In this document: positions 3,330-54,625 of the stretch, piece by piece
Position numbering within the stretch: the stretch's first letter is position 1
Layout of the letters: the number at the start of each line of letters is the position of its first letter
Assembly (NCBI RefSeq): GCF_032854445.1
Contig: NC_088305.1
Coordinates: forward strand, 27,924,628-27,988,627
Origin: Liolophura sinensis
Lineage: Eukaryota > Mollusca > Polyplacophora > Chitonida > Chitonidae
Direction: 5' to 3'
Length of the DNA stretch: 64,000 nt
Notes under the pieces: generated by a model
Seen by the model: only the letters and a program-made list of their open reading frames with translations
Database searches by the model: none
Told to the model about the DNA's origin: nothing
Translations under genes and position numbers: made by a program

Positions 3330-3460
3330 GACCATTATGTCTAGTGATAGTTGCAGAGATGATGGCTGTTGTGATCATAAATATGCTGTTTTGAAAGACT
3401 AGTCACACCATTGTGTTGTTAGTTGCAGAGACAATTGTTGTTGTGATGTGATGCTTTGAA

Positions 3461-4590
3461 TGCCCTTATCTGGCCATTATTTTGTATTTCCTTTGAAGAG
3501 AATTGGTGGTAGTTGTGATCATAAGTGTCCTGTTCGGAATGGCCTTATCTGGCCATTATTTTGTATTTCCTTTGAAGAGAATTGGTGGTAGTTGTGATCA
3601 TAAGTGTCCTGTTCGGAATGCCCTTATCTGGCCATTATTTTGTATTTCCTTTGAAGAGAATTGGTAGTAGTTGTGATCATAAGTGTCCTGTTCGGAATGC
3701 CCTTATCTGGCCATTATTTTGTATTTCCTTTGAAGAGAATTGGTAGTAGTTGTGATCATAAGTGTCCTGTTCGGAATGGCCTTATCTGGCCATTATTTTG
3801 TATTTCCTTTGAAGAGAATTGGTAGTAGTTGTGATCATAAGTGTCCTGTTCGGAATGCCCTTATCTGGCCATTATTTTGTATTTCCTTTGAAGAGAATTG
3901 GTAGTAGTTGTGATCATAAGTGTCCGGTTCGGAATGGCCTTATCTGGCCATTATTTTGTATTTCCTTTGAAGAGAATTGGTGGTAGTTGTGATCATAAGT
4001 GTCCTGTTCGGAATGGCCTTATCTGACCATTATTTTGTACTTCCTTTGAAGAGAATTGGTGGTAGTTGTGATCATAAGTGTCCTGTTCGGAATGGCCTTA
4101 TCTGGCCATTATTTTGTATTTCCTTTGAAGAGAATTGGTAGTAGTTGTGATCATAAGTGTCCTGTTCGGAATGGCCTTATCTGGCCATTATTTTGTACTT
4201 CCTTTGAAGAGAATTGGTAGTAGTTGTGATCATAAGTGTCCTGTTCGGAATGCCCTTATCTGGCCATTATTTTGTACTTCCTTTGAAGAGAATTGGTAGT
4301 AGTTGTGATCATAAGTGTCCTGTTCGGAATGGCCTTATCTGGCCATTATTTTGTATTTCCTTTGAAGAGAATTGGTAGTAGTTGTGATCATAAGTGTCCT
4401 GTTCGGAATGGCCTTATCTGGCCATTATTTTGTATTTCCTTTGAAGAGAATTGGTAGTAGTTGTGATCATAAGTGTCCTGTTCGGAATGCCCTTATCTGG
4501 CCATTATTTTGTATTTCCTTTGAAGAGAATTGGTAGTAGTTGTGATCATAAGTGTCCTGTTCGGAATGGCCTTATCTGGCCATTATTTTG
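3461..4590. repeat. Minisatellite, 79-bp unit, about 14 copies
   Basis: The unit runs from GCCCTTATCTGGCCATTATT through TTTCCTTTGAAGAGAATTGG to GTGTCCTGTTCGGAAT. It recurs with a constant 79-bp step (for example the TCCTGTTCGGAAT block at about 3530, 3609, 3688 and on to 4557) and very few differences. Diverged half-units containing GTTGCAGAGACAAT flank the array at about 3330-3460 and 4600-4700, which suggests an older repeat that was recently homogenised. The length is not a multiple of 3 and no coding role is suggested. Confidence 0.95.
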
Positions 4591-4759
4591 CATTTAGCTG
4601 TTGCCCTCGTACTGTTTACATTAAGTAATAGTTGCAGAGACAATAGTTCTTGTGAGTATAAATGTGCTGTTCTGAACGGCCTATTCAAAACACTGCCATG
4701 TAATATTTGCCCTGAGCGTATTGTATACCTTTGGTATGGTGAGGATCTCTTTCAGAATT

Positions 4760-6833: not shown

Positions 6834-7094
6834 CAACGCGCGAGGGAAATCACCAGCACGACGCTTATCTCTGCAACCATCTGACAAATATCCGGGAATT
6901 TGGATTCAAACACGTGATTTCAATTACATGAGCACAATTAAGCTCTGTTTATTGTAAATTGAAATGTCATATATTACAAAGCATATAGTCATCTGAATAA
7001 TGAAATGGGAATTCAAGTTCTTAAAGAGCAAAGAAACAGAATGTGGTGTGCTTGATTTTCAAACTTCCTAATAATGGTTTGACGAACGCTTTAA

Positions 7095-7985
7095 GTATAG
7101 CCTACATACCCTGTCGCCTGACAGCTGTGAGGAAGTACGTCCCGGTCTATGTATAGCCTACATACCTTGTTGCCTGACAGCTGTGACGAAGTCCGTTCCG
7201 GTCTAAGTGTAGCCTACATACCCTGTCGCCTGACAGCAGTGATGAAGTCCGTTCCGGTCTGAGTATAGCCTACATACCTTGTCGCTTGACAGCAGTGACG
7301 AAGTCCTTTCCGGCCTGAGTATAGCCTACATACCCTGTCGCCTGACAGGAGTGACGAAGTCCGTTCCGGTCTGAGTATAGCCTACATACCCTGTCGCCTG
7401 ACAGCTGTGACGAAGTCCGTTCCGGTCTGAGTATAGCCTACATACCTTGTCGCCTGACAGCAGTGACGAAGTCCGTTCCGGTCTGAGTATAGCCTACATA
7501 CCTTGTCGCCTGACAGCAGTGACGAAGTCCGTTCCGGTCTGAGTATAGCCTACATACCCTGTCACCTGACAGCAGTGACGAAGTCCGTTCCGGTCTGAGT
7601 ATAGCCTACATACCCTGTCGCCTGACAGCAGTGACGAAGTCCGTTCCGGTCTGAGTATAGCCTACATATCCTGTCACCTGACAGCAGTGACGAAGTCCGT
7701 TCCGGTCTGAGTATAGCCTACATACCTTGTCACCTGACAGCAGTGACGAAGTCCGTTCCGGCCTGAGTATAGCCTACATACCCTGTCGCCTGACAGGAGT
7801 GACGAAGTCCGTTCCGGTCTGAGTATAGCCTACATACCCTGTCGCCTGACAGCAGCGACGAAGTCCGTTCCGGTCTGAGTATAGCCTACATACCCTGTCA
7901 CCTGACAGCAGTGACGAAGTCCGTTCCGGTCTGAGTATAGCCTACATACCTTGTCACCTGACAGCTGTGACGAAGTCCATGCTAA
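7095..7985. repeat. Minisatellite, 56-bp unit, about 16 copies
   Basis: The unit runs from GTATAGCCTACATACCCTGT through CGCCTGACAGCAGTGACGAA to GTCCGTTCCGGTCTGA, repeated every 56 bp. Variants alternate at a few sites (CCCTGT/CCTTGT, GTCGCC/GTCACC, CAGCAG/CAGCTG/CAGGAG). The first two units are the most diverged. Confidence 0.95.
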
Positions 7986-8511: not shown

Positions 8512-10005
8512 AACAATCTGTTAATTTTAATAGAAAATCTGTTGCCTACTGATGCTAAAATGTAGTCCGTTATTATGACATAGTGTGTCATACTAGTATT
8601 CAACATACTATCTGTGTTGAATTCAGAGATGGTGTGTATTATATTTCCCCAAGTGTGTCATACTAGTATTCAACATATTATCGTGTTAGTATAGTATAGC
8701 CTTTGTGTTGAATTCAGAGATCATGTGTATTATATTTCCCCAAGTGTGTCATACTAGTATTCAACATATTATCATGTTAGTATGGTATAGCCTTTGTGTT
8801 GAATTCAGAGATGGTGTGTATTATATTTCCCCAAGTGTCATACTAGTATTTAACATATTACCGTGTTAGTATAGTATAGCCTTTGTGTTGAATTCAGAGA
8901 TCGTGTGTATTATATTTCCCCAAGTGTGTCATACTAGTATTCAACATATTATCGTGTTAGTATGGTATAGCCTTTGTGTTGAATTCAGAGATGGTGTGTA
9001 TTATATTTCCCCAAGTGTGTCATACTAGTATTTAACATATTACCGTGTTAGTATAGTATAGCCTTTGTGTTGAATTCAGAGATGGTGTGTATTATATTTC
9101 CCCAAGTGTGTCATACTAGTATTCAACATATTACCGTGTTAGTATAGTATAGCCTTTGTGTTGAATTCAGAGATCGTGTGTATTATATTTCCCCAAGTGT
9201 GTCATACTAGTATTCAACATATTATCATGTTAGTATAGTATAGCCTTTGTGTTGAATTCAGAGATGGTGTGTATTCTATTTCCCCAAGTGTGTCATACTA
9301 GTATTCAACATATTATCGTGTTAGTATAGTATAGCCTTTGTGTTGAATTCAGAGATCGTGTGTATTATATTTCCCCAAGTGTGTCATACTAGTATTCAAC
9401 ATATTATCGTGTTAGTATAGTATGGCCTTTGTGTTGAATTCAGAGACCGTGTGTATTATATTTCCCCAAGTGTGTCATACTAGTATTCAACATATTATGG
9501 TGTTAGTATAGTATAGCCTTTGTGTTAAATTCAAAGATCGTGTGTATTATATTTCCCCAAGTGTGTCATACTAGTATTCAACATATTATGGTGTTAGTAT
9601 AGTATAGCCTTTGTGTTGAATTCAGAGATCGTGTGTATTATATTTCCCCAAGTGTGTCATACTAGTATTCAACATATTATCGTGTTAGTATAGTATAGCA
9701 TTTGTGTTGAATTCAGAGATCGTGTGTATTATATTTCCCCAAGTGTGTCATACTAGTATTCAACATATTATGGTGTTAGTATAGTATAACCTTTGTGCTG
9801 AATTCAGAGATCGTGTGTATTATATTTTCCCAAGTGTGTCATACTAGTATTCAACATATTATGGTGTTAGTATAGTATAACCTTTGTGTTGAATTCAGAG
9901 ATGGTGTGTATTATATTTAACAGAATAAACTGCTCAAGTAACAGAATACATTCTAACATCACTCAGACAAAAGACTGGCTGTTCAATTTAACAGACTTTT
10001 TTAGA
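8512..10005. mobile_element. TIR element (MITE-like) carrying an internal satellite array
   Basis: The left end (AATCTGTTAATTTTAATAG, GAAAATCTGTTG…GATGCTAAAATGTA) and the right end (ACATTCTAACATCACTCAGA…CTGTTCAATTTAACAGACTT) are imperfect reverse complements over about 50 bp. Related ends occur at 45064-45181 and 58925-59165. Nearly all of the interior is the 91-bp array. There is no transposase frame, so it is non-autonomous. Confidence 0.65.
8580..9915. repeat. Minisatellite, about 91-bp unit, 15 copies, inside the TIR element
   Basis: The unit runs TAGCCTTTGTGTTGAATTCA, GAGATCGTGTGTATTATATT, TCCCCAAGTGTGTCATACTA, GTATTCAACATATTATCGTG, TTAGTATAGTA. The block GTTGAATTCAGAGA recurs 15 times from about 8614 to 9888 at steps of 88-94 bp. 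The unit shares words with the interior of the sister element near 58990-59090 (TGTTGAATTAACAG, GTGTGTTATATTTAACAG), so the array seems to have grown from element sequence. Confidence 0.93.
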
Positions 10006-16796: not shown

Positions 16797-18394
16797 TGTA
16801 ATTAGATAGTCCAGATATAGGCCTACATAAGGATCAAGAAAGTGCAGAGTTTTGCTCACGTATTAACTTGCTTTGTCACAGGCCTTAACCACTTATAATA
16901 TTTTGAAATATACCTATTTGCAGAAACAAATGGCATAAGAGTGCCAAGAGAGTTGAAAATGTTGTTGAAGGATGATACAGCCATACAGAAACTCAGCATT
17001 AGACCTCAAGTGTAGGATGAGTTCATGACAATTGATAACACATGCACATGAATTTCGTGGATGAGTGGTTAATATGAAAATTAAAGATGCTCGTATTGCC
17101 GTTTGCGCAACCCCCATCAATATGTCGTGCTTGACTTCGGCATGTATAAACATGCCAAAATTCGGTCGATCATTATGTATGCATGTGAAACATTTCTGGA
17201 TATGGCGTTAGACAGCAACCCATAGCAATCTAACGCAATACAGTGCATCATTTAGCAGGTACCTTGTTAAGTGTGGTGGGTAAACTGGTTTCCCCACTTT
17301 CATCAACAAACCACGTGATTACCGTTATATTATGTGAAGTACCCTGGAGTGTCAGGTAAAACACCGATCAAACCAAACTGCAGGACGGGACTTTCTTTAC
17401 ATATACGCCCATGCTACAGCACTTATTAACTAAATGGAACAAGTAAACGTTCAAAAGGCGTGCTACCCTAATTCGTCAATCTATTCAACTACCTCTGCAA
17501 CCAATAATTTGAGTCATTCTGGGAGAACTATGGGGTTTAGAGAAATAATTTGCGCAGCTTAATACAGCTTGCATCTTTAGTGACACTAACAAATCATTTT
17601 AGCATCATTTTCATTATAATTGTGTGCATAAATTTCACTGAAAAAAATACTTTAGCGGTCGAAAATGTTGAAGATTTACGGAATGTTTACGGTTACAGCT
17701 ACACGTTATGCTTCCTGGATAAATCTGGCGACCTCCAAGCTGATTTTTTCTCCCAGCTTTCAAGCATAATGCTGACATTTTCTGTCTGAGATATTTCACA
17801 AGTATCTATTTTGGGCTAGCACGAGTTGGAGACAAAACGCCTATTTTAGTTTACATTAGAATAAAGAGCTAGCTTGTTCCTTGCTGCATTACGTACAACT
17901 GCATGTATGACATTTCGCGAACTCCCGTTGTTCTGCAGACTTCACACGCCAACCTTTGACGAAAACGGCCATCTTTACGTGTCAACATCGTAAATGGTTA
18001 TCTTAAGGCCGTGTCAAAATTTAGCCAGGCTTTTTTGGCTCACGGAAAACACATCGAACTTTTGAACTGCGGTGCAGCCGATTTTTTTCTCCGTAATGAA
18101 AACGAACCATCGTCTTTTTATGTCCACCCAGGAATGTTTGCAGGGGATTATTCTTACAAGGTGCGAACATTTTGGGATTGATCTGACTATTTCGGCTGCC
18201 GGTGTTTGAGACAGACCCAAAGCTATCCCTTTATTGATGCGTTAAAACTGACGTCATTGACTTCATGTTTCTTGCAATGCAGTCCTTTCGACCAAAAGGC
18301 CGCTCCAGTTCAGTTTTTTGGTTTATGGCTACATCTTGGAACCACCGTCAAACATCGTTAAACGCTGTTGTTTGCCTCAGTTTCCTCTTACCAT
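16797..18394. other. Intergenic, one diverged dispersed repeat, otherwise nothing recognised
   Basis: It holds a stretch (17480-17700) that recurs at 20236-20450, and a possible worn SINE tail near 17355 (AAAACACCGATCAAAC). No exon is recognised. Confidence 0.45.
17480..17700 (+). repeat. Dispersed repeat, copy 1 (unclassified)
   Basis: GCTTGCATCTTTAGTGACAC, AACAAATCATTTTAGCATCA and AATTTCACTGAAAAAAATAC match 20236-20450 in order and orientation at an estimated 75-80 percent by eye. Confidence 0.65.
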
Positions 18395-18830
18395 ATCCCG
18401 ACCGCCGTCATACATGGTGATGCACCGATGTTTTCTCAGTTTCCTCTAACCATAACCCGACCGCCGTCACATGGTGATGCACCGATGTCTTCTCAGTTTC
18501 CTCTAACAATAACCAGACCGCCGTCACATGGTGATGTTCCGATGTCTTCTTGGTTTCCCCCAACAATAACCCGACTGCCGTCACATGGTGATGCACCGAT
18601 GACTATTTGGTTTCCTCTAACTATAACCCGACTGCCGTCACATAGCGATGCACGGATGTCTTCTCAGTTTCCTCTAACCATAACCCGACCACCGTCACAT
18701 GGTGATGTTCCGATGTCTTCTTGGTTTCCTCTGACTATAGACCGACCGCCGTCACATGGTGATGCGCCGATGTCTTCTCGGTTTCCTCTAACCGAAACCC
18801 GACCGCCATCATACATGGCGATGCGCCGTG
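18395..18830 (+). repeat. Minisatellite, about 57-bp unit, about 8 copies, derived from SINE-like sequence, open in one frame
   Basis: The unit is roughly GGTGATGCACCGATGTCTTC, TCAGTTTCCTCTAACCATAA, CCCGACCGCCGTCACAT. The block GTTTCCTC…ACCATAA…CCGCCGTC matches the reverse body of SINE family A (GGTTTCCTCCCACCATAATG, CTGGCCGCCGTC). With a length divisible by 3 the array stays open on + as repeats of PPSHGDAPMSSQFPLTITR, and the frame runs from 18368 to 19108 (246 codons). More diverged, proline-rich copies with TTTCCTCC and CCGCCATACATTCA continue to about 19060. There is no start context, splice signal or domain supporting a protein. I treat the frame as a by-product of the repeat. Confidence 0.85.
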
Positions 18831-19060
18831 TTTTCCCTAGATTTCCCCCATCAAAATATCAACCGTCGTCATATTTGGCAAGCCGCGATTTCTTTGTTGT
18901 TTTTTCAGGTTTCCTCCACCCTAATCTCCTCCCAGAAAACCCACCCCCGCCATACATTCACCATGAAGTGCAGTTGTTTCCTCCTCTGGTTTCCTCCACT
19001 CACAGCCCCATTCCTCCCATAAAACCGCCATACATTCATGATGAAGTGTTTCCCCTGGTT

Positions 19061-19484
19061 TCTTCACCATATAAACCACATGATCCGCAAACCAATGAAT
19101 ACAATTGAAATCGCCTAACAGTTGTTAAAGTTCCCAAAGAAAGACTTCATTTTTCGGCCTTACGCAAGCGAGAAAAGTAAACACAGTTTGTCAATAATTA
19201 TCGAAGCCCATGCAAGCTTCAAAAAAAAAAAAAAAAAAAAGAAAGAAAGAAAGAAAAATTGCGCAGACGTTTTTATCGAGTCCGCTATACAACATGTTAG
19301 GTAATGCCTTTATACATATAACACCATTATAACGCTAACGTCTGAGGTTCGAATCCAGATCTGGCTGACGGCTGGCCTAGATGTATACTTTTATGTCTGG
19401 GATTTTATCTGGTAGATAGCAAACTACCTGAACGACTACATGAAGGAAGTCATAAAATGCTCCATCGATTATTTCTTATTTTTT
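19061..19484. other. Intergenic with A-rich run
   Basis: It contains about 22 A followed by (GAAA)n at 19220-19258 and, near 19345-19375, a B-box-like GAGGTTCGAATCCAGATC that could be a worn SINE head. No gene is recognised. Confidence 0.4.
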
Positions 19485-35755: not shown

Positions 35756-37019
35756 TTTGCCTACATTCTGAATGGATGTGCATTACATGTATACTTGTAT
35801 AAAATCGCAAGTTAATATGCATGACGTTTAAATCATGCGCTATCATGCACACGTACACGCTGATGTAAAAATAAGTTCACAGTTTTGTTTGTGGCTGTAA
35901 CAGAGTTTTTGATCGTACATATTCATGTACGGTCATTTGCATGTAAAACAAGGGCTGGTAAGGGCGTCATGACCTGACCCAGCCTATGCATTATTAATGG
36001 CAATATTGTTACATTATAATATTACAAACAGCTGTAGAGCTGATTAAGAATAGAGTCTTTTTTTAGCCATTTCGTACACTGACAGCGATAATGTAAAAAG
36101 CATCCCATTAATGTAATATTTTACGTGAAGTTTTTCACACGCACACCCAACTAAAAAGTATCAATCATATATAGTCATATAAATCATGTAAATACTGCAG
36201 AATTTCTGAACTAGAAATAAAACCCAGAGCAGGTTTTGCTTGCTACATGTGCATGGGTAGCTCAGCCTTCTGGCTCCATTTTCTGTTGCTAAATGTTTTG
36301 TATGTGCTTTTTATAACAAACCGCAGTCTAAGATGTTATTTACTCTTTCTCGCTTCTCATGCCAGATGAATGTGAATTAATATGTTTAAGTTTGGGAACA
36401 CATTTAGAAAACTCAAGTTTTTGTTGAGATTATTTGACTGATCACACTGGAAACTTAAACACATGGATTATATACATCATGTACCTCATTAAGTTGTGTT
36501 TTTACTTGAAAAAATGTTATTGTTCTCGGCTACGGTTTCCTTTCACCCCACCCTTCCCCCGAAATACTTGTACTGTCAATGGAGCAGGAAATGCTGCGTC
36601 AAGCCAGGTGCAGGTTACCCACTTGCCCTGAAGTCTCACAAGAGTTGGAATAACAGACTGTGAGAAGGACAGTCATGCTACTCTGGGGTGTATCGCCAAC
36701 AATGAACTGACATACATGTTATCAGAGGATATTAACCATCCATCTTCATCAAAATGTACAACTGTCCTTCACGAAAAATCCAGTCCAAAACATCCTTCAG
36801 CAATCTGTTTCCCCTATTTTCAAATTCCCACAAGTTTTGAAAGGGTTTTGGTAGAAAATACAGATTTCTTATTACATTAAGTGAATTCTTATTAATAAAT
36901 ATCAATACCACATCACCAATTTCATAAAAACAATGGAAGTCTTGTCTAAGACATAACAGTTAATCCAAGGCTTAAGCCACAGCAGATTATTGACCAACAT
37001 GACCAAGATCTGATTTACT

Positions 37020-38295
37020 AGTAGATGTAGTCAGTACAGCAGACATCCAGGCGCTTTAGTAGTACACGTAGTCAGTACAGCAGACATCCGGGCACTTTAC
37101 CAGTACATGTAGTCAGTACAGCAGACATCCGGGCACCTTAGTAGTACATGTAGTCAGTACAGCTGACATCCAGAGGCTTTAGTAGTACATGTAGTCAGTA
37201 CAGCAGACATCCGGGCACCTTAGTAGTACATGTAGTCAGTACAGCTGACATCCAGAGGCTTTAGTAGTACATGTAGTCAGTACAGCAGACATTCGGGCAC
37301 CTTAGTAGTACACGCAGTCAGTAAACCAGACATCCGAGCACTTTACTGGTACATGAAGTCAGTACAGCAGACACCCGGGCGCTTTACTAGTACACGTAGT
37401 CAGTACAGCAGAAACCTGGGCGCTTTACTAGTACATGTTGTCAGTACAGCAGACATCCGGGCGCTTTAGTAGTACATGCTGTCAGTACAGCAGACATCCG
37501 GGTACTATACTAGTACACGCAGTCAATACAGCAGACATCCGGGCACTTTAGTAGTACATGTAGTCAGTACAGCAGACATCCGGGCACTATACTAGTACAC
37601 GTAGTCAGTACAGCAGACACCCGGGCGCTTTACTAGTACATGTAGTCAGTACAGCAGACATCCGGGCGCTTTACTAGTACATGTAATCAGCAAAGCAGAC
37701 ATCCGGGCACTTTACTAGTACATGCTGTCAGTACAGCAGACACCCGGGCACTTTACCAGTACATGTAGTTAGTACAGCAGACATCCAGGCACTTTACTAG
37801 TACATGTAGTCAGTACAGCAGACATCCGGGTACTTTACTAGTACACGTAGTCAGTACAGCAGACACCCGGGCACTTTACCAGTACATGTAGTTAGTACAG
37901 CAGACATCCAGGCACTTTACTAGTACATGTAGTCAGTAAAGCAGACATCCAAGCACTTTAGTAGTACATGTAGTCAGTAAAGCAGACATCCAGGCACTTT
38001 ACTGGTACATGTAGTCAGTGCAGCAGACATCCGGGCGCTTTACTAGTACATGTAGTCAGTACAGCAGACATCCGGGTACTTTACTAGTACACGTAGTCAG
38101 TACAGCAGACACCCGGGCACCTTACCAGTACATGTAGTTAGTACAGCAGACATCCAGGCACTTTACTAGTACATGTGGTCAGTACTGCAGACATCCAGGC
38201 AATTTACTGGTACATGTAGTCAGTGCAGCAGACATCCAGGCACTTTACTAGTACATGCAGTCAATACACCAGACATCCTGGCACATTACTTGTAC
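37020..38295. repeat. Minisatellite, 41-bp unit, about 31 copies, with higher-order 123-bp blocks
   Basis: The unit runs CTAGTACATGTAGTCAGTAC, AGCAGACATCCGGGCACTTT, A. Variants (TACACGTAG, GACACCCGGG, CCAGTACATGTAGTTAG) recur in fixed three-unit order, for example from about 37739 and 37862, exactly 123 bp apart, and again near 38105. This shows that blocks, not just single units, were copied. It lies in C1GALT1 intron 1. Confidence 0.95.
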
Positions 38296-40650
38296 ATGTA
38301 TGAGTCAGCGGCAAACAGATGACCAGGTGAAAGATAACATGGGAAGGAATAGGGAAATGAGCAACAATGGACGATATTCAGAAAAGTACAGCTGGTAATA
38401 ACCAGAAATGATAGTGTGTATGACAACAGAACAAAGTGCTCAATACACATATATATATAAACATGAACTTTACCAAAACCAAAGGCTGTCAAGAAGAGAT
38501 TTGCATTAATGCCCAAGATATTCAGACAATCTTTTCACCGCTGTGCGTGAGCGAGTAAGTTTGTCAGCAAATACCCTGATGTCTGCGGTCTCAAATACAA
38601 AGAATTATTAAATGTGATAGGACACTGCCAAACCATTATCTCTCTTGTATATTTTCAAAAATTAAATTTTTTATCTGTCTCTGAGTGGATGATACATTTT
38701 TTGGGCAACTGAAAGTGAAGTTAGTTGGCAACATTTTAGGCCATCAATTTGATGATAATTGTATACTGGTAGTTTCATTATCGGAGTGTAACTGTGCAGT
38801 TTAAAGCTTGTATCCAGGCATGCATAGCTCTGCAATGCTGTAGCATCTGGTCAAACTTGCAGCGTGGGGAAAGGGGATATTGGAGGGTGGTGCGAGGAGG
38901 CTGAACAGGGACTTACTGTGGTTAAATTCCAGGTGGGTGGGATGAGTTTAGCTAGGGCTTTTTGTTTTACGCAAATTGGAATACTGCAGGGAAGGGAGGG
39001 GATTGTCACTTATCTATTTGTTGCAATTGTTTAAAGGGAACATGCAAGTAACCCAGATCTATGGAAAAGTAAGTTTTATAGGATTGGGAGGGGAGGGTAT
39101 GGGGTGGGGTCAAGGGTGTTCTCTGGTCCAACCAAAAAGCAACTCTGAAGCACTGCAGCTGCTTGTCCTGCAGACGGCCAGGGATACAGGGTAATCATCA
39201 ATGGAGTCTTAAGAAATATATGTACATGTAAGCTAGGATAAAGAATTAATACAGGCTATACAGGATATTTTGGGCGAAAAATTGATCAGCGCACACACTT
39301 GTACTAACAAATTTTTGCTATTATAGGAGACCAATAAAATAATTACCGTTCACAAAATATCCCTCTCATCTGTGCACATGTTACCATTCGAACTCAGTGA
39401 TGAAGTCCATAAGATTTATAATGCCAGATGCATTGTAACTTTTTCAAACCTTAGAATAATTTTATTTTATCATTTCTTCCCCCATAAATAGGACACATGC
39501 AAGTCTGATTTTTCCTGACAGGCAACGATTTAAGCTACATGTATTTGATATGATTAGCAAATATGGATTTTTGGATACAAATCTCTGGAATAGCCTCTGT
39601 TAGGACGATGGGTGTTAGGTATGGTGCTGGGGGGTTAGCTTCTGAGGTGGGTAGTACTGTCTTCCATCAGAGGTCAGGGGTTAGAGGTCATCAGGCTAAT
39701 AGGGAGAGACTTGGACACCAACACATAACAATAGCATGTACTGTGGGTTGTAACCCTTGTTTTCCAAATATACTCAGGCTCTTCAATATGCACTCTCTGT
39801 TTCCAAAAGTTCTATATTTATGATAAAAATCACATACACTACCATTGGTACTCAAGATTTTAATATGTTTAAATTATTTTTAAAATCTAACTACAGCTAC
39901 CTCGACCAGCAACGCTGTCAGACACTTTTAACACAGCTTAAAACCATGCATACATCTCCATCAAAGTCCATCAAAGTCCACAAAAAAGACATCCACACGA
40001 CATGCTTGATTGCACACCAGACATCGCATGGAACAAACATGGGACTCATATGCCCAAATAAAATTATATTTAAATTATTACAAAATTACACCAGGTACAC
40101 AGGGCTCTTGATCTGGACAAGTGGTTAGTCCCTAACTAGAGGGCTGAGGTGTTATTTTTTTCACCCTGTAAATCCTATGGGAAAGAGGGGACAGACGTTA
40201 TCTCTTAACACCCTGGCAAGGCTAGTATTGAGCAGCTCTAGCTAGATGGACTATGTCTAACTCTGGTGTAGGCCTGCATGGCTTGCACTTAATTCATAGT
40301 TATAGTACTGCACAAATTTTGCACTCCATTTATATGCAGAAGTGGCTTGAACAGCTGATGACAGATCATGTATCCGTACAGGAAACACTGCTCCCATTGT
40401 CAATGCTTCAGAAACAAACCCACGCCCACAAAATCAAGGCTTCAAAAACGGAGTTATCATTTCTTCCCCCATTTCCGCCACTGTTGCATTTTTGTTCAAA
40501 CTTTCGCCTCCGATTCGACACCCAACAAAATTTCAAGAGTTTTAACAAATCACAGGTGTTTGGACACTCAATTACAGGCAGCTAATCGTCCGTTTGGCCA
40601 GTGGTCAGATCAAACAAGAAGACAGACACTGAGACAGTGATGAAGTTTAC

Positions 40651-45672: not shown

Positions 45673-46151
45673 TCACTTGTAAAATTTTATCTCGGTGTCG
45701 ACGACGTCCTTAAACAAATCGACGATTTCTGGATATTTGGCTTCATTGAAATTTTTAAGGAATTCTTGCACGTCTTCAATGCATTCGTTTTCCAGATGTT
45801 GCATTGTTTCTCGCAGCTTCTGGCCTTGTGGAGACCCTTCCGCCATAAGTTTCCTCCCTTTCTCGTGCATTCTGTAAAGTAGGTGGCGCTGGTCTGAGGT
45901 TTCCTGCGAACCAGCCTCGATGCCGGATAGAGTGCCCTTCCCTATCACAGGATTTGGGCAAAAGACAAACGGCTTGAAAACAGACAAATTGGGGTCAGGG
46001 GTCGCCGTCAGCCAGTGAGAACACGGGACACTGGAACTACGTGGTGTGAGAACAGACACCTGGCTGGCGGTCGTCACTATGTCTCCATGGAAACTTATAC
46101 TGCTATTTACATCACGTAAGACTGAAAACATACTCTCCAGACAAAAGCTTC
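45673..46151 (-). CDS. SCRN: Secernin coding exon 5 (C-terminal)
   Basis: Last exon of secernin. It enters after TTGTTTTACAG with two bases completing a glycine codon from exon 4. It reads FCLESMFSVLRD, DIVTTASQVSVL, HWLTATPDPNLSVFKPFVF and DQRHLLYRMHEKGRKLM, then a helical tail with DVVDTEIKFYK and TGA at 45675-45673. TASMVSVLP, TATPDPSRSVFKPFIF, RRHxLYxxH and the D-TEIKF end are signature segments of vertebrate secernins 1-3. It adds 158 residues and has no frame disruptions. Confidence 0.96.
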
Positions 46152-48295: not shown

Positions 48296-49410
48296 CTGTG
48301 GAAACAAAACTGGTGTAAACGTAACTGACTCGGTAACTGATAAAGTGACTGTCTGCCTGGATGACTAACTGAATCATTTTCTGACTGACTGTCTGTTTCG
48401 ATTAATGCCTGAGTCACTTTCTGACTGACTGTCTGCTTGGATGACTGCCTGAGTCACTTTCTGATTGACCGTCTTCTTGGATGACTGTCACTTTCTGACT
48501 GATTGTCTGCTTGGATGACTTTCTGAGTCACTTTCCGACTGACTGTCTGCTTGGATGACTGCCTGAGCCACTTTCCGGCTGACTGTCTGCATGGATGATT
48601 GACTGATAAAGAGATTACAGGATAGAGGGGAAAACACGTGAATGACGACCTGACAGTGTGCTAATTGCCAAATGGTTACACCTAACCGGTGAAATACGAC
48701 CTCTTATCAGTTTACCTCAGTTGGGGCCTAACTCTAACTGTTCATGTAAATGCCTATATAAACAGTAGCAACTTACACAGCTCCTTGCAGCATGACTTAA
48801 GCAGAATTAGGTAAAACCATGGAGTGATGTTGATTGCAATTTATTACATGCCATGTGAACCTCTCAAAAATTCTGACAGGCTGTTTTACTAACTGGCTGA
48901 CTTACCAGCTGCATTGCTAATACATATTTTGCTTAACTGACTCATATACTAGCTGGCGGTTCGAGTGAATGACTGATAGAATGCCTTGAAATATTTTCAA
49001 TTCTGGCGCTATGCTTAACTCAACTTAAACCCTTGAACCCATCTACCAACTTAAACTCATCCCTCGGGCTGTATAAACATGGCGCACTTCTTATATCGCC
49101 GTTGTTTATTATTTATTTACGTATTAATTTAATTGCTGGATGGAGTGGATTGACTAGAGTGCTGTGAATCTAGGTGTCGAAATAGACATTCGTACACCAG
49201 CCGTCAACCGAAACACCTGACAAATCCCATCACATAAAGCGAGCCTCAGCAGAATCAAACTTGCTCTTTATTGTCTTTGAAGGTACCGACCACAGCTTAA
49301 AGACTACAGAATAAAAATTATAGCCACGAGAATGACCCAAATGTTTCGTCGCATTTCATTCGTCATGATGTATGTATTACAGCTTTCACTGACTGTCACG
49401 TACGCTATAC
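48296..49410 (-). other. SCRN intron 2
   Basis: GTATAG donor and TTCCACAG acceptor. It holds the 40-bp CTGACTGACTGTCTG-type repeat (48370-48610); the rest is unique. Confidence 0.85.
48370..48610. repeat. 40-bp tandem repeat, about 6 copies, in SCRN intron
   Basis: GACTGACTGTCTGCTTGGAT GACTGCCTGAGTCACTTTCT repeated with indels. One unit is shortened. Confidence 0.88.
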
Positions 49411-49598
49411 CTGACAAAGTCTGCACCAATCAGCTTCTTCCCCTGGTCTCCTTGACTACACAGCTTGGTCCAGACAGACGTATTGCCGATACAAACCCCG
49501 TGCTCATTGGCTCCCATCTCTGCTCCCCAGCTCCAGGTGGGTTTACTGAGGATTAGAGAGTGCGTGTGACCCACCTGCTCCACATCCAGAAATGTACA
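49411..49598 (-). CDS. SCRN: Secernin coding exon 2 (C69 signature)
   Basis: It enters in phase 0 after GGGTGATTTTCAG and reads [20 protein letters not shown], then [16 protein letters not shown], the most conserved motif of the secernin branch of peptidase family C69, and SVWTK. GADFV ends the exon, whose donor (CAG|GTATAG) splits an Arg codon completed in exon 3. Most vertebrate members have SRPxWLWGAEMG; here it is [12 protein letters not shown]. 62 full codons and no disruptions. Confidence 0.97.
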
Positions 49599-51038
49599 CT
49601 GAAAATCACCCAGATTCATTGATTGATGTATTACGTGTTAAGACATGAGATTCATGGATATTTGGAATATATACGACAGGTTTATGACTTCAAGAAACAC
49701 AACAGAGGTCAGACGAAAATTAAAAAAAGTATATAGCCTAATAAACATTACATATCATCTAAAATGTCTAGCTTTGCTAGTGTTTAATGCAAATTTTACT
49801 ACCACTTGAATAATGTCTGCGAATGTATTTTTATGGTTTAACGTCGTAACATTTTTTCAGTCAAATCACGACAAGGAGACATTCGATGTGTGTACATATA
49901 CTGTGTCTTCTTGTGGCAGGGCGAGTCCATGCTGCCAAAGTGCTGCCGCCACTTAAGTATCATGCGGAAGACACCAAACATGACACCCACTCAGCCACAT
50001 TATACTGACACAGAATCAACCAGTCTGTTTCCTTGCTCTGCCCAAGCGATACAGCAAAACAAGTACCATTTTTATAGTCTTTGGTATGACCCGGGTCTCT
50101 CGACATCGTATAATGTCTTCCCCAACTGGACAATGCAGTGCACTCCAACGGTATTCAGTGTAAAAACCATTCGTCAGCGACCTAGCGCCAGTTTGAAAAA
50201 CGATCTATTATTAGAAGCTATTACAAGATTACTGCCTCAGAACCAATCGTAATATTATAACACGTATTTAAGCGCTGTGAGACATTTCTGTTGAAGTATA
50301 AAGTATATTGCATGCGATTTAAATCCCATTTTGTCGCGAACCTCATGATACTCCTGACTTTGTTTTTGGTTGTTGGGTGAGGCTAAGTGTTAGACTTTGC
50401 CCTATCCTGTATAGTCATAATAAAAATATACAAAAACAGCATCGGGTTAAAGCCTTCGGCTAAAAGAAGGTAAAAAAAATATAACCCTTTTCGCTTGTGT
50501 GCTTTTTTCCTAGCCAATTATCCAAGAAAAAAATAAACTGTATGGTGGTCACTCAAGGTTAAATTTGTTTTACATTCATTATTATCGGGTATAAAGTCAT
50601 GTGTAAATCACCACCCTTGACTGATTGACTGAAGAAGGAATGTCTTCTAAACAGATTAAACGAAGTATTTTGGAATTATATATATGTAGCGCAAAATACC
50701 AATCAAATGAATAAATATAATATTACACATTCACACCATAATACCTTATAGAATGTTCGAAGACAGTTAATCCTTCCTGCCTTTTAAGGAATTTCTGCAG
50801 TTCCTTACAAATAATGAAATTTCCGAAGTGCAGATTTCCTTAAGAAGAAAACACATGTGCATTTAAAAAATAGACCCCACAATCAAGAAGAACATCTTCA
50901 CCAACAACTTCCCCGATGTCACATGAGCTCCTCATTTCTGCTAAAAAAAACGTTACGTATTATAAAGTTATGAGAACGAGAACTTTGAACGCTGTCACTC
51001 TATTAAGTTTGACCTTAAAGAGGTGTATAAAGATGTAC
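49599..51038 (-). other. SCRN intron 1
   Basis: Donor GTACAT (51038) and acceptor TTTTCAG (49599). It contains a family B SINE (49835-50120). The rest is AT-rich with no other gene. Confidence 0.85.
49835..50120 (-). mobile_element. SINE family B copy in SCRN intron
   Basis: On -: a GAGACCCGGGTCATACC B-box-like head part, the core GACTGGTTGATTCTGTGTCA GTATAATGTGGCTGAGTGGG, then CGCATGATACTTAAGTGGCG and the terminal ACGACGTTAAACC. The same core is in 41968-42175 and 57813-58130. The open frame of 120 codons on + here is a shadow of it. Confidence 0.8.
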
Positions 51039-51182
51039 CTTGAGCTTCATGCCTGCCGCATTGTCCTGAGCAGGGACATAGACAACCTCCTGCACCTCCG
51101 TGGGTGGTCGGTCCGAGTTTTTCCCGAAGATCACGTTACCACCCGCAGTCGCTGGGGGAAGGGCCACGAATACGTCAGACAT
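51039..51182 (-). CDS. SCRN: Secernin coding exon 1 (start; N-terminal nucleophile position is Ser)
   Basis: Start ATG at 51182-51180. It encodes [15 protein letters not shown], then [11 protein letters not shown] and [12 protein letters not shown], and 48 codons end at AAG|GTACAT in phase 0. The match to the secernin start (C-D-x-FVALPPAT…[19 protein letters not shown], as in SCRN3) is strong. In secernins the nucleophile is the Cys of C-D-x-F; here that column is Ser2, exposed if the initiator Met is removed. A likely acceptor (TTTGTTTTCTGCAG) lies at 51209-51207, giving a 24-base leader. That acceptor, the leader, the ATG and the first seven codons form the innermost unit of the 60-bp array extending to 52925. 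A further upstream non-coding exon is probable but not identified. Together the five exons give 416 residues, the usual length. Confidence 0.94.
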
Positions 51183-52925
51183 TATCGACAAGGTGAGCTT
51201 GTGTTTCTGCAGAAAACAAACAGGTCAGGAATACCTCAGACATTATCGGCAAGGTGAGTTTGTGTTTCTACAGAAAATAAACAGGTCACGAACACGTCAG
51301 ACATTATCGGCAAGGTGAGCTTGTCTTCCTACAGAAAGTAAACAGGTCAGAAACACGTCAGACATTATCGGCAAGGTGAGTTTGTCTTCCTATAGAAAAT
51401 AAACAGGTCACGAACCCGTCAGAGACTATCGGCAAGATGAGTTTGTGTTCTTACAGAAAATAAGCAGGTCATGAACACGTCAGACATTATCGGCAAGGTG
51501 AGCTTGAGTTCCCACAGAAAATAAGCAGGTCACGAATACCTTAGACATTATCGGCAAAGGTGAGTTTGTGTTCTTGTAGAAAACCAACAGGTCAGAAACA
51601 TGCCAGACATTATCTTCAAGGTGAGCTTGTGTTCCTACAGAAAGCAAACAGGTCAGAAACACGTCAGACATTATCGGCAAGGTGAGTTTGTCTTCCTATA
51701 GAAAATAAACAGGTCACGAACCCGTCAGAGACTATCGGCAAGATGAGTTTGTGTTCTTACAGAAAATAAGCAGGTCATGAACACGTCAGACATTATCGGC
51801 AAGGTGAGCTTGAGTTCCCACAGAAAATAAGCAGGTCATGAACACGTCAGACATTATCGGCAAGGTGAGCTTGAGTTCCCACAGAAAATAAGCAGGTCAT
51901 GAACACGTCAGACATTATCGGCAAGGTGAGCTTGAGTTCCCACAGAAAATAAGCAGGTCACGAACACGTCAGACATTATCGGCAAGGTGAGCTTGAGTTC
52001 CCACAGAAAATAAGCAGGTCATGAACACGTCAGACATTATCGGCAAGGTGAGCTTGAGTTCCTACAGAAAATAAACAGGTCACGAATACCTTAGACATTA
52101 TCGGCAAAGGTGAGTTTGTGTTCTTGTAGAAAACAAACAGGTCAGAAACATGCCAGACATTATCTTCAAGGTGAGCTTGTGTTCCTATAGAAAGTAAACA
52201 GGTCAGAAACACGTCAGACAGTATCGCCAAGGTGAGCTTGTCTTCCTATAGAAAGTAAACAGGTGACGAAAAAGTCAGACATTATCCTCAAGGTGAGCTT
52301 GTGTTCCTACTGAAAATAAACAGGTCAGGAACACGTCACACATTACCGGCAAGATGAACTTCTGTTTGTACAAAAAAAAAACAAAAAAAAAAACAGGTCA
52401 CGAACACGTCAGGCATTATCGACAAGGCAAGCTTGTGTTCCTACAAAAAATAAGCACGTCAGACATTATCGGCAAGATGAGCTTGGGTTCCTACAGCAAA
52501 TACACAGGTCACGAATACGCCAGACATCATCGGCAAGGTGAGCTTGGGTTCCTACAGAAAATACACAGGTCACGAATACGTCAGACATTATCGGCAAGAT
52601 GAGCTTGGGTTCCTACAGCAAATAAGCACGTCACACATTATCGGCAAAGTGAGCTTGTGTTCCTACAGAAAATAAACAGGTAACAAACCCGTCAGACATT
52701 ATCGGCAAGGTGAGATTGTGTTCCTTAGAAAGTAAACAGGTCAGAAACACGTCAGACATTATCGGCAAGGTGAGCTGGTGTTCCTACAGGACAAAACAGG
52801 TGACGAAGAAGTCAGACATTATCGGCAAGGTGGACTGGTGTTCCTACAGAAAGTAAACAGGCCACGAATACTTCAGACATTATCTTCAAGGTGGGCCAAT
52901 CTTCATACAAGATAAACAGGTGGTA
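51160..52925 (-). repeat. Minisatellite, about 60-61-bp unit, about 29 copies, each copying the SCRN splice acceptor and start codon
   Basis: On -, each unit reads CTGTTTATTTTCTGTAG then GAACACAAGCTCACCTTGCC GATAATGTCTGACGTGTTCG TGAC, i.e. pyrimidine-rich acceptor, leader, ATG TCT GAC GTG TTC GTG. The innermost unit is the real SCRN exon start (51160-51220). On + every unit carries GGCAAG|GTGAGC, a consensus 5' splice site. Multi-unit blocks recur: a segment starting near 51379 is repeated about 303 bp (five units) later, and one near 51525 about 550 bp (nine units) later. This indicates unequal exchange. Units of 60 and 61 bp mean that no frame stays open throughout. Confidence 0.93.
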
Positions 52926-54625
52926 CCGTCTGCCTAACCAGCCCAGTTAATATTTGTAAAATGTTTTCGCCCATAGTCAAGTCAATCAAAATGGGTTCAT
53001 TCAGGGTTCATTGTTCATTAGACTCATTTTGCGTATGCAAGCACATTATACAAAGTAAAGTCTTAAAACTGTATTTAGTGTCAATATGTTGTTGTTCATT
53101 TATCTAAATAAATAAACCAATGTAAAAATGAAAAGAAAATAATAAATGTAAATAGTACGTGAAATGCATATGGAAAAGTAGCATGTGTGTTGCAGTAATT
53201 TGGTATGACTTTCAGCTGGGACTCAAGTAAAAGAGTGCAACATTTTTCGTATGATTCTCACAAACAATACAAAACCTGCTCTGGTATGAATTTTTCAAAT
53301 CTATAATTCGAACGCGACTTGATGAGACGCACGCTTCAATGTTGTTGGTACACTCCGAGGCATGACACGTAGTATAGCAATCTAAACTCATTTTCTTATA
53401 CTGCATGGTGCTTTTATACTGTGTAAAGGAATGTTTACACTGGATGTAACGACATGGAATGGGAATGCATACAGTTATATGTTTACATAATTAACGTGAA
53501 GAAAACATCATGCAGGCATATACCCCGCTCAGTTTTCACTCTGCTTGTGTCCAAATTTTACAATTTGGACTATTATCAGTGAGACTTTAAATATGTAATT
53601 TGCGATCTGTGTGCATAAATCGGGATAATACAGGGAAATGCGGATCAAGATTTTCATGTTTTTTTTCTTGTACATGTAGCATGAAGCATGTCGAAACGAT
53701 ATATAGTGACATAATTAAATCCGCCCCATGCAATATACATGCACCTAACCCAGAACTCACGTAAAGCTTATATAGGTATATTCAGAACACGATAGTATAT
53801 AGAACTCGTCGATACGGAAATGTAGTATGCAGTAGAATCAACTTTTCATGTCCACTAAATTTCCGCAGATTTCGCTCCTTGAGCACGCATAAATGCATTG
53901 AAACGTGATACATGAGAAAAACAAGAGAATAACATTTCGTAAAAATCACGTCTTGACGCACTTAACGTGTTCTTAATGTTGTCGGTAGCTGTCACTCAGG
54001 GTCATGCTTGGGTCTACAGGTGCTTGTGACTGTGATGGTCATTACAAGGCCGCCGGCAGATGTACAAGAAACATACAGGCGATGAACATGCATAGCCTGG
54101 AATGACATCACTGACCGAGAAACAGGCCACATTCCGGCCTGACTGACAGCTGCACAGATGGATCAATTATGTCGGATTTCATTCAAGCCCAGCTGGAAAT
54201 GAACAACCCGCTGCATCACGCGAAACGGGCAGTTTGCCTAGACATATATACCAAGCCAAGCCGCCATATAGGAGAAACGCGACTTCCTGGAGAATAGCTT
54301 ATATACGTACATGATTCATACAGTGTCGACCGGTGTAGAGAGTCTAGGTCTGTTATACATCAGTCTAACGGAGTATTTACCCTTATGGACAAAAACAGAA
54401 ACTGACATACCTATATATTACCAAAACACCGGGTGTTGATAAAGATGGCTGAGTGCTGGTTATAACCGGTAGACCTAGGAGTCTTGACGCGCCGGCGAAA
54501 TCAAGATTTCCTGTCTGTATAATGTTATGTTAATAACTGCATCAGTTTCGCAGACTACCTTCCGACTCGATCAGTCCCTTCGCCAACATTCGGCAAAGTT
54601 CGGCTTCGGGAAAACCAACCAACAT
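52926..54625. other. Intergenic upstream of SCRN, nothing recognised
   Basis: Unique AT-rich sequence. The SCRN promoter or a 5' non-coding exon could lie here but no signal stands out. Confidence 0.4.

Follow-up and report, generated by a model that had tools for sequence, protein, structure and literature searches.

Minisatellites which duplicate exon-intron boundaries have been described in amphioxus under the name of mirages, and the genes concerned include Adh3, the globins BflGb6 and BflGb9, TnC and PGBD5 (PMC3087553, PMC3902484). According to these papers the splice signals of a mirage are present in many but not all of its units, and the units are homogenized within a cluster. The repeat in BflGb6 consists of the 3' end of an intron and the 5' part of the following exon, and RT-PCR suggests that regular splicing is left undisturbed by the mirages (PMC3087553). 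Length instability has also been reported for the lancelet mirages.

Three other kinds of repeat are related to the subject. Intron gain from tandem duplications of AG/GT proto-splice sites (Rogers; Zhuo et al.; Gao and Lynch, cited in PMC3087553) likewise involves intragenic copies of splice signals, whereas the chiton array to be described lies within an intron which presumably was already there, and no new intron or exon is seen in it. The internal tandem repeats of human genes (PMC2812944) are minisatellites whose units average about 30 bp, and some of them activate cryptic splice sites and form new introns; these cases come from genes in segmental duplications and have their repeats inside exons, whereas in the chiton the real junction appears to be the seed. 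The C. elegans element CeRep25B (PMC4039745) is an intronic minisatellite too, it has been linked to multiple alternative splicing and an influence on splicing was suggested, but it occurs at many places on two chromosomes, carries regulatory motifs and does not consist of copies of a gene's own junction.

The array at a secernin-like gene of a chiton (Liolophura sinensis) shares with the amphioxus mirages that it is a minisatellite-like tandem duplication of an exon-intron boundary. The differences are that the host is not a cephalochordate, that the chiton unit includes a leader and a start codon, and that there are 29 units against 6 and 3 in two haplotypes of BflGb6. The initial annotation of this DNA knew of no described equivalent. 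That view fails, PMC3087553 offering a direct parallel in BflGb6 and PMC3902484 another in PGBD5. The secernin array is already described in principle and is one of several such arrays in the chiton genome; the occurrence of mirages outside the cephalochordates and their recurrence in one chiton genome are possibly new. The open-licence literature searched contained no mirage from molluscs or chitons, which is not proof of absence.

Anatomy of the array

The features of the gene are listed below with their positions in the window, by which we mean the whole 64-kb stretch of DNA that was analysed. All are on the minus strand, and a slash in a splice site marks the junction.

51165 to 52893, minus strand: tandem array with a 61-bp unit of acceptor, leader, ATG and first codons (TRF, unit alignment)
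Out to about 52922, minus strand: degenerate outermost unit of the array (unit alignment)
51228 to 52926, minus strand: 28 decoy units upstream of the innermost one, with 34 ATGs, none of which starts a reading frame that joins that of the gene
51207 to 51226, minus strand: innermost 3' splice site ending in gacctgtttgttttctgcag, the presumed working acceptor (score 9.7, best of 58 AGs)
51183 to 51206, minus strand: 24-nt 5' leader of the first coding exon (from the sequence)
51180 to 51182, minus strand: start codon of the secernin-like gene (from the sequence)
51039 to 51206, minus strand: first coding exon (predicted donor AAG/GTACAT)
49411 to 49598, minus strand: second coding exon (boundaries by splice consensus)
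45673 to 46151, minus strand: last coding exon with the stop codon (acceptor by splice consensus)

The minisatellite at 51165-52893 is reported by TRF with a period of 61 bp, 28.5 copies, 82% matches and a score of 2072, which is far beyond chance. Our own partition of the array gives 29 units, 24 of which are distinct, with a mean pairwise identity of 0.793 in the unit alignment. On the minus strand the innermost unit reads TTTGTTTTCTGCAG, followed by the leader (51206-51183) and an ATG with its A at 51182. This unit is continuous with the open secernin frame, and the remaining copies lie outward in the predicted intron. The homology found by TRF ends at 51165, so the array takes in the acceptor together with 42 nt of exon sequence, the boundary being called by splice consensus. 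Tandem copies of acceptor, leader and start codon directly upstream of the first coding exon had been proposed from the beginning, and they are borne out by TRF and by the 29 units. The proposed contents of the innermost unit also stand, except that it was credited with the first seven codons, and the 42 nt include 18 coding nt or about 6 codons.

It had further been stated that every unit carries TAG/G, which is too strong. TAGG is present in 15 of the 29 units, an ATG in 26 and the exact sequence ATGTCTGACGTGTT in 10. When the unit alignment was inspected by eye the AG was found to be lost in five units, U14, U13, U12, U11 and U06, which have TGTGGG (a regular-expression count gives seven, U24 and U21 being short with an AG beyond its search range). 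An AG thus stands at or near the acceptor position in 24/29 units, and splice signals are present in many units but not in all. The similarity within the array takes the form of identical inner units and block duplications. Mean identity is 0.66 for the outermost unit and 0.81 for the innermost one, and the interior units U20, U21 and U24 are low as well (0.59-0.71). The repeats span the boundary, the junction is the edge copy and many units hold splice signals, as in a mirage.

A genome search with the secernin unit, in which very common words were skipped, gave 16 matches, all of them within this array on C11. The unit is found at no other locus and was therefore made in place; copies at other genomic places, by which a dispersed mobile element or an introner would be recognized, were not seen. 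Nor did the single assembly contain a second copy of the secernin locus.

The joined exons 1-3 match PF03577 (Peptidase_C69) in Pfam with 24.6 bits against a cut-off of 23, and a gene with such a match we take to be a secernin. The match spans residues 106-178, so exon 1 itself lies outside the matched stretch. The last coding exon alone had no Pfam match, and a PDB search with exons 1-2 had none. A paralogous secernin exon at C11:15227997 has an acceptor with a score of 7.2, a 14-nt leader and an ATG, and is without an array at its acceptor. In the remainder of the window an Rfam search (of all 64 kb) gave nothing. There are 70 stop-to-stop frames of 85 aa or more, and a Pfam search with 10 of them gave a zf-RVT match below cut-off as its sole match; two further frames had no Pfam match. 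A separate 40-bp array at 48346-48606 in a secernin intron ends about 50 nt before the acceptor of exon 3 and does not cover it.

Splice sites, start codons and the reading of the array

We consider it probable that the array is a mirage, that is, an intronic minisatellite which was seeded across the junction, has grown by slippage, leaves the exon-proximal acceptor in use and is largely neutral. Tolerated repeat growth, and not a switch, is the most likely description of what is seen at this gene. The anatomy, the near-identical blocks and the exonic edge of the array are direct observations in its favour. The seed would be a tandem duplication straddling the 3' splice site of the first coding exon, and slippage or unequal exchange, also of multi-unit blocks, would have enlarged it into a 5'-UTR intron, the existence of which we infer together with the mechanism of duplication. 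The exon-proximal unit would provide the working acceptor and the initiation site, and the other approximately 28 units would normally leave with the intron. If a decoy were used now and then, the leader would be extended by about 61 x k nt with short uORFs, giving less protein of unaltered sequence. Plausibly this is the only effect that the array has, the decoys being mostly inert.

The acceptor scores come from a matrix for which 72 called acceptors of the chiton genome, with a median score of 10.2, were the training set. With 9.7 the innermost AG is the best of the 58 AGs in the array, the decoy maximum being 8.8, and this could be a hint of selection between units. Among the decoy AGs ten out of 57 surpass the 10th percentile of the called chiton acceptors. 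A motif resembling a branch point, CTGAC, precedes the innermost AG by 19 nt. Since it is also found 16-30 nt upstream of 15 of the 20 array AGs scoring above 3 (the innermost included, thus 14 of 19 decoys), the branch point does not single out the innermost AG and was rejected as a discriminator.

Upstream of the real start the array has 34 ATGs on the sense strand, none of which is in frame and open into the gene, so no longer protein would result from reading through the array into the mature leader. Sixteen of the 34 open frames of 22 codons, 15 of these stopping in the next unit, and the last such uORF (51243) overlaps the real ATG out of frame. If the array were part of the mature leader, the only possible result could be a leader which represses. 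The expectation that a pre-mRNA reading through the array contains many competing 3' splice sites and ATGs holds good with these counts.

It had also been suggested in the initial annotation that the copy number tunes the expression of the gene. For this the outer acceptors would have to be used in a measurable share, the uORFs would lower translation or trigger decay of the message, and the number of units would set the share. The ten decoys above the 10th percentile and the sixteen 22-codon frames, including the one across the real start, speak for such a control, and PMC4039745 links intronic minisatellites of C. elegans to alternative splicing. Against it, the acceptor segment is the most variable part of the unit. 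The difference from the consensus is 0.130 in the acceptor segment, 0.101 in the ATG part and 0.080 in the leader, and the ranking is the same when only distinct units are used (0.137, 0.111 and 0.085). Units without AG have been amplified to five copies, which speaks against upkeep of the acceptors. The lancelet mirages are reported to leave splicing undisturbed (PMC3087553, PMC3902484), and comparable arrays are present at other junctions of the chiton genome, so a role specific to this gene is not needed. Tuning by copy number thus finds no support here, and we regard it as unlikely.

Less likely still is the alternative that the gene has no 5'-UTR intron, that transcription starts in the array or just downstream of it, and that the units act, if at all, as DNA, by providing binding sites or spacing. 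An upstream exon and a promoter of the secernin-like gene were looked for and not found, and a scan of the sense strand at 50900-53600 gave no donor above the 10th percentile, as this alternative would have it. It should be mentioned that the scan is strict and also misses the predicted donor of exon 1 at 51039; the partner donor would accordingly be farther off or weak. Against a start in the array stands the good acceptor which immediately precedes the ATG. Of the ATGs in the window (2,700 on the two strands, those of the array included) only 1.3% have an equally good acceptor within 45 nt, and the paralog has a like layout with an acceptor whose score of 7.2 is equalled at 6.6% of the same ATGs.

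The unit also has splice signals on the other strand. The presence of consensus 5' splice sites there, claimed from the first inspection, was confirmed: the antisense sequence AAGGTGAG occurs in 20 of the 29 units, and the plus strand of 51100-52950 has 33 donors and 4 acceptors above the 10th percentile of called chiton sites. The plus-strand AAG/GTGAGC or AAG/GTGAGT reaches scores of 10.9-12.1, the median of the called real donors being 10.0. One could imagine from this that the seed was a donor junction of a plus-strand gene and that the secernin exon 1 was merely overlapped, which we find very improbable. The edge of the array lies inside exon 1, the unit holds the acceptor, the leader and the ATG of secernin, and the plus-strand frames of 113 and 127 aa are without known relatives (no Pfam match for that of 113 aa). 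Antisense donors reach p<0.05 against matched noncoding DNA in just 1 of 32 other arrays; they are therefore treated as incidental in the secernin array, and they look so. An assembly artefact is very improbable. Tandem arrays can be misassembled and the assembled copy number could be off, but an array of 1.7 kb fits within an average HiFi read (mean 8,347 bp in the genome paper), and 24 of its 29 units are distinct.

Duplicated junctions elsewhere in the chiton genome

Junctions were collected from two arbitrarily chosen families, the myosins and the SNF transporters, with loci taken non-randomly as those of the best-scoring exons. Use was made of 46 of 81 myosin matches (44 of them inside retrieved loci) and 42 of 109 SNF matches; duplicates and sites with a consensus score below 5 were left out before counting. 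The junctions were called with a consensus matrix and re-scored with the matrix trained on the same 72 acceptors and 64 donors. Six of the 136 called junctions have at least two nearby copies of their own junction-spanning 24-mer, five of 79 in myosin (1/40 acceptors, 4/39 donors) and one of 57 in SNF (0/32 acceptors, 1/25 donors). With a threshold of one copy instead of two the number is 7/136. At the same loci the corresponding rate is 13.8% (myosin) and 7.6% (SNF) for noncoding positions, and 1.0% and 0.07% for exon interiors. The junction rate lies between the two, as expected of a neutral process which is pruned at exons. A targeting of minisatellites to junctions was considered and rejected as unnecessary, since junctions are duplicated at a lower rate than the noncoding positions around them. 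The arrays over junctions are sufficiently accounted for by a high overall rate of minisatellite growth.

The arrays described below are:

L023 990-1514 (66 bp x 8) and L016 520-1075 (31 bp x 18), G000:C12:683158-688414: donor-side arrays of myosin C12
L025 9-705 (32 bp x 22): acceptor-side array over an exon start of myosin C2
L066 and L050, G000:C8:50216724-50218844: intron of SNF C8

Two of the six duplicated junctions belong to one myosin gene, that on C12, and both of its arrays reach 16 nt into their exons. The true acceptor of myosin C2 is equalled or exceeded in score by 17 decoys. The donor-side cases are five in all; myosin C12 (686.7k) and myosin C11 have 7 decoy donors each which at least equal the true site, and the remaining three have 1, 2 and 2. 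A seventh duplicated junction, in SNF C8, was found afterwards and stands outside the 6/136. Its intron of 2,119 bp contains 42 copies, the true one included, of a 44-bp unit made up of the acceptor and the start of the next exon (GGIYWLQL), the first copy beginning 30 nt after the donor. Among the decoys 27 AGs are above the 10th percentile and 6 are better than the true acceptor. The array is interrupted by an insertion with a tRNA-like sequence, which by eye is SINE-like.

In all seven of these other duplicated junctions decoys equal or beat the true site, and the true site is the strongest at secernin alone. The idea that the true site is always the strongest was rejected on this ground, and site strength alone is not a general rule for the choice. 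Conserved domain sequence reaches right up to the junction in these exons. The exon-proximal site is therefore presumably the one used, even where decoys are as strong, and it is probably the position next to the exon (exon definition) that decides. We suggest, tentatively, that it is common for chiton introns to lengthen by copying their own splice junctions head to tail, and that they do so independently of the lancelets. If our small sample were representative, thousands of junctions would be correctly spliced amid equally strong decoys. Position by the exon, and not site strength, would then govern splice-site choice, and in the number of junction units much unrecorded polymorphism would be stored, from which new exons and introns could be made.

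The wider genomic pattern, more than secernin, deserves to be followed up. It extends the boundary-duplicating minisatellites, which in the literature found are confined to lancelets, to a mollusc, and at several genes. Such arrays are natural experiments on splice-site choice, with dozens of near-identical acceptors or donors per intron whose usage can be read from RNA-seq, and the tandem-duplication model of intron gain would become testable in a lineage with current examples.

When 32 arrays were compared with matched noncoding DNA, p<0.05 was reached for sense donors in 6, for sense acceptors in 2, for antisense donors in 1 and for antisense acceptors in none. The sense-donor positives include four junction cases, in L016 (two arrays' worth of donors), L031 and L057, and two arrays to which no junction was assigned, L046 and L016 2178-3131. 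A 49-bp array at L059 1855-2333 has, on the strand antisense to the gene, the sequence CAAGGTGAGCT, which is like the antisense donor of the secernin unit.

The share of sequence taken up by arrays found by TRF is 6.0% in 48 kb of random sequence and 12.9% in the window; for the two exon sets it is 12.5% and 6.4%. In the genome paper the class 'Other (simple repeat, microsatellite, RNA)' is given as 0.08% and unclassified repeats as 14.04%; the latter may hold some of the TRF arrays. Other large minisatellites of the window are located at 37014-38300 (41 bp), 8613-9918 (91 bp), 3458-4595 (79 bp) and 7094-7978 (56 bp). At 18362-19105 an open frame of 248 aa, possibly coding and with no Pfam match, runs over a 57-bp repeat present 8 times.

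Amphioxus was considered as the host and rejected. Its GFP family was not found, which is weak evidence, as the 14 controls were negative too; the mitochondrial gene order given below also speaks against it. Finally, contig G000:C99 of 108,685 bases has seven COX1 matches about 15.5 kb apart and is apparently a concatemer of the mitochondrial genome. One strand carries cox3, nad3, nad2, cox1, cox2 and atp6 (from translations of open frames, COX1 by tool), the other nad5, nad4, nad4L, cob, nad6, nad1 and the LSU rRNA (the rRNA by tool), a gene order of the kind found in chitons and other early molluscs.
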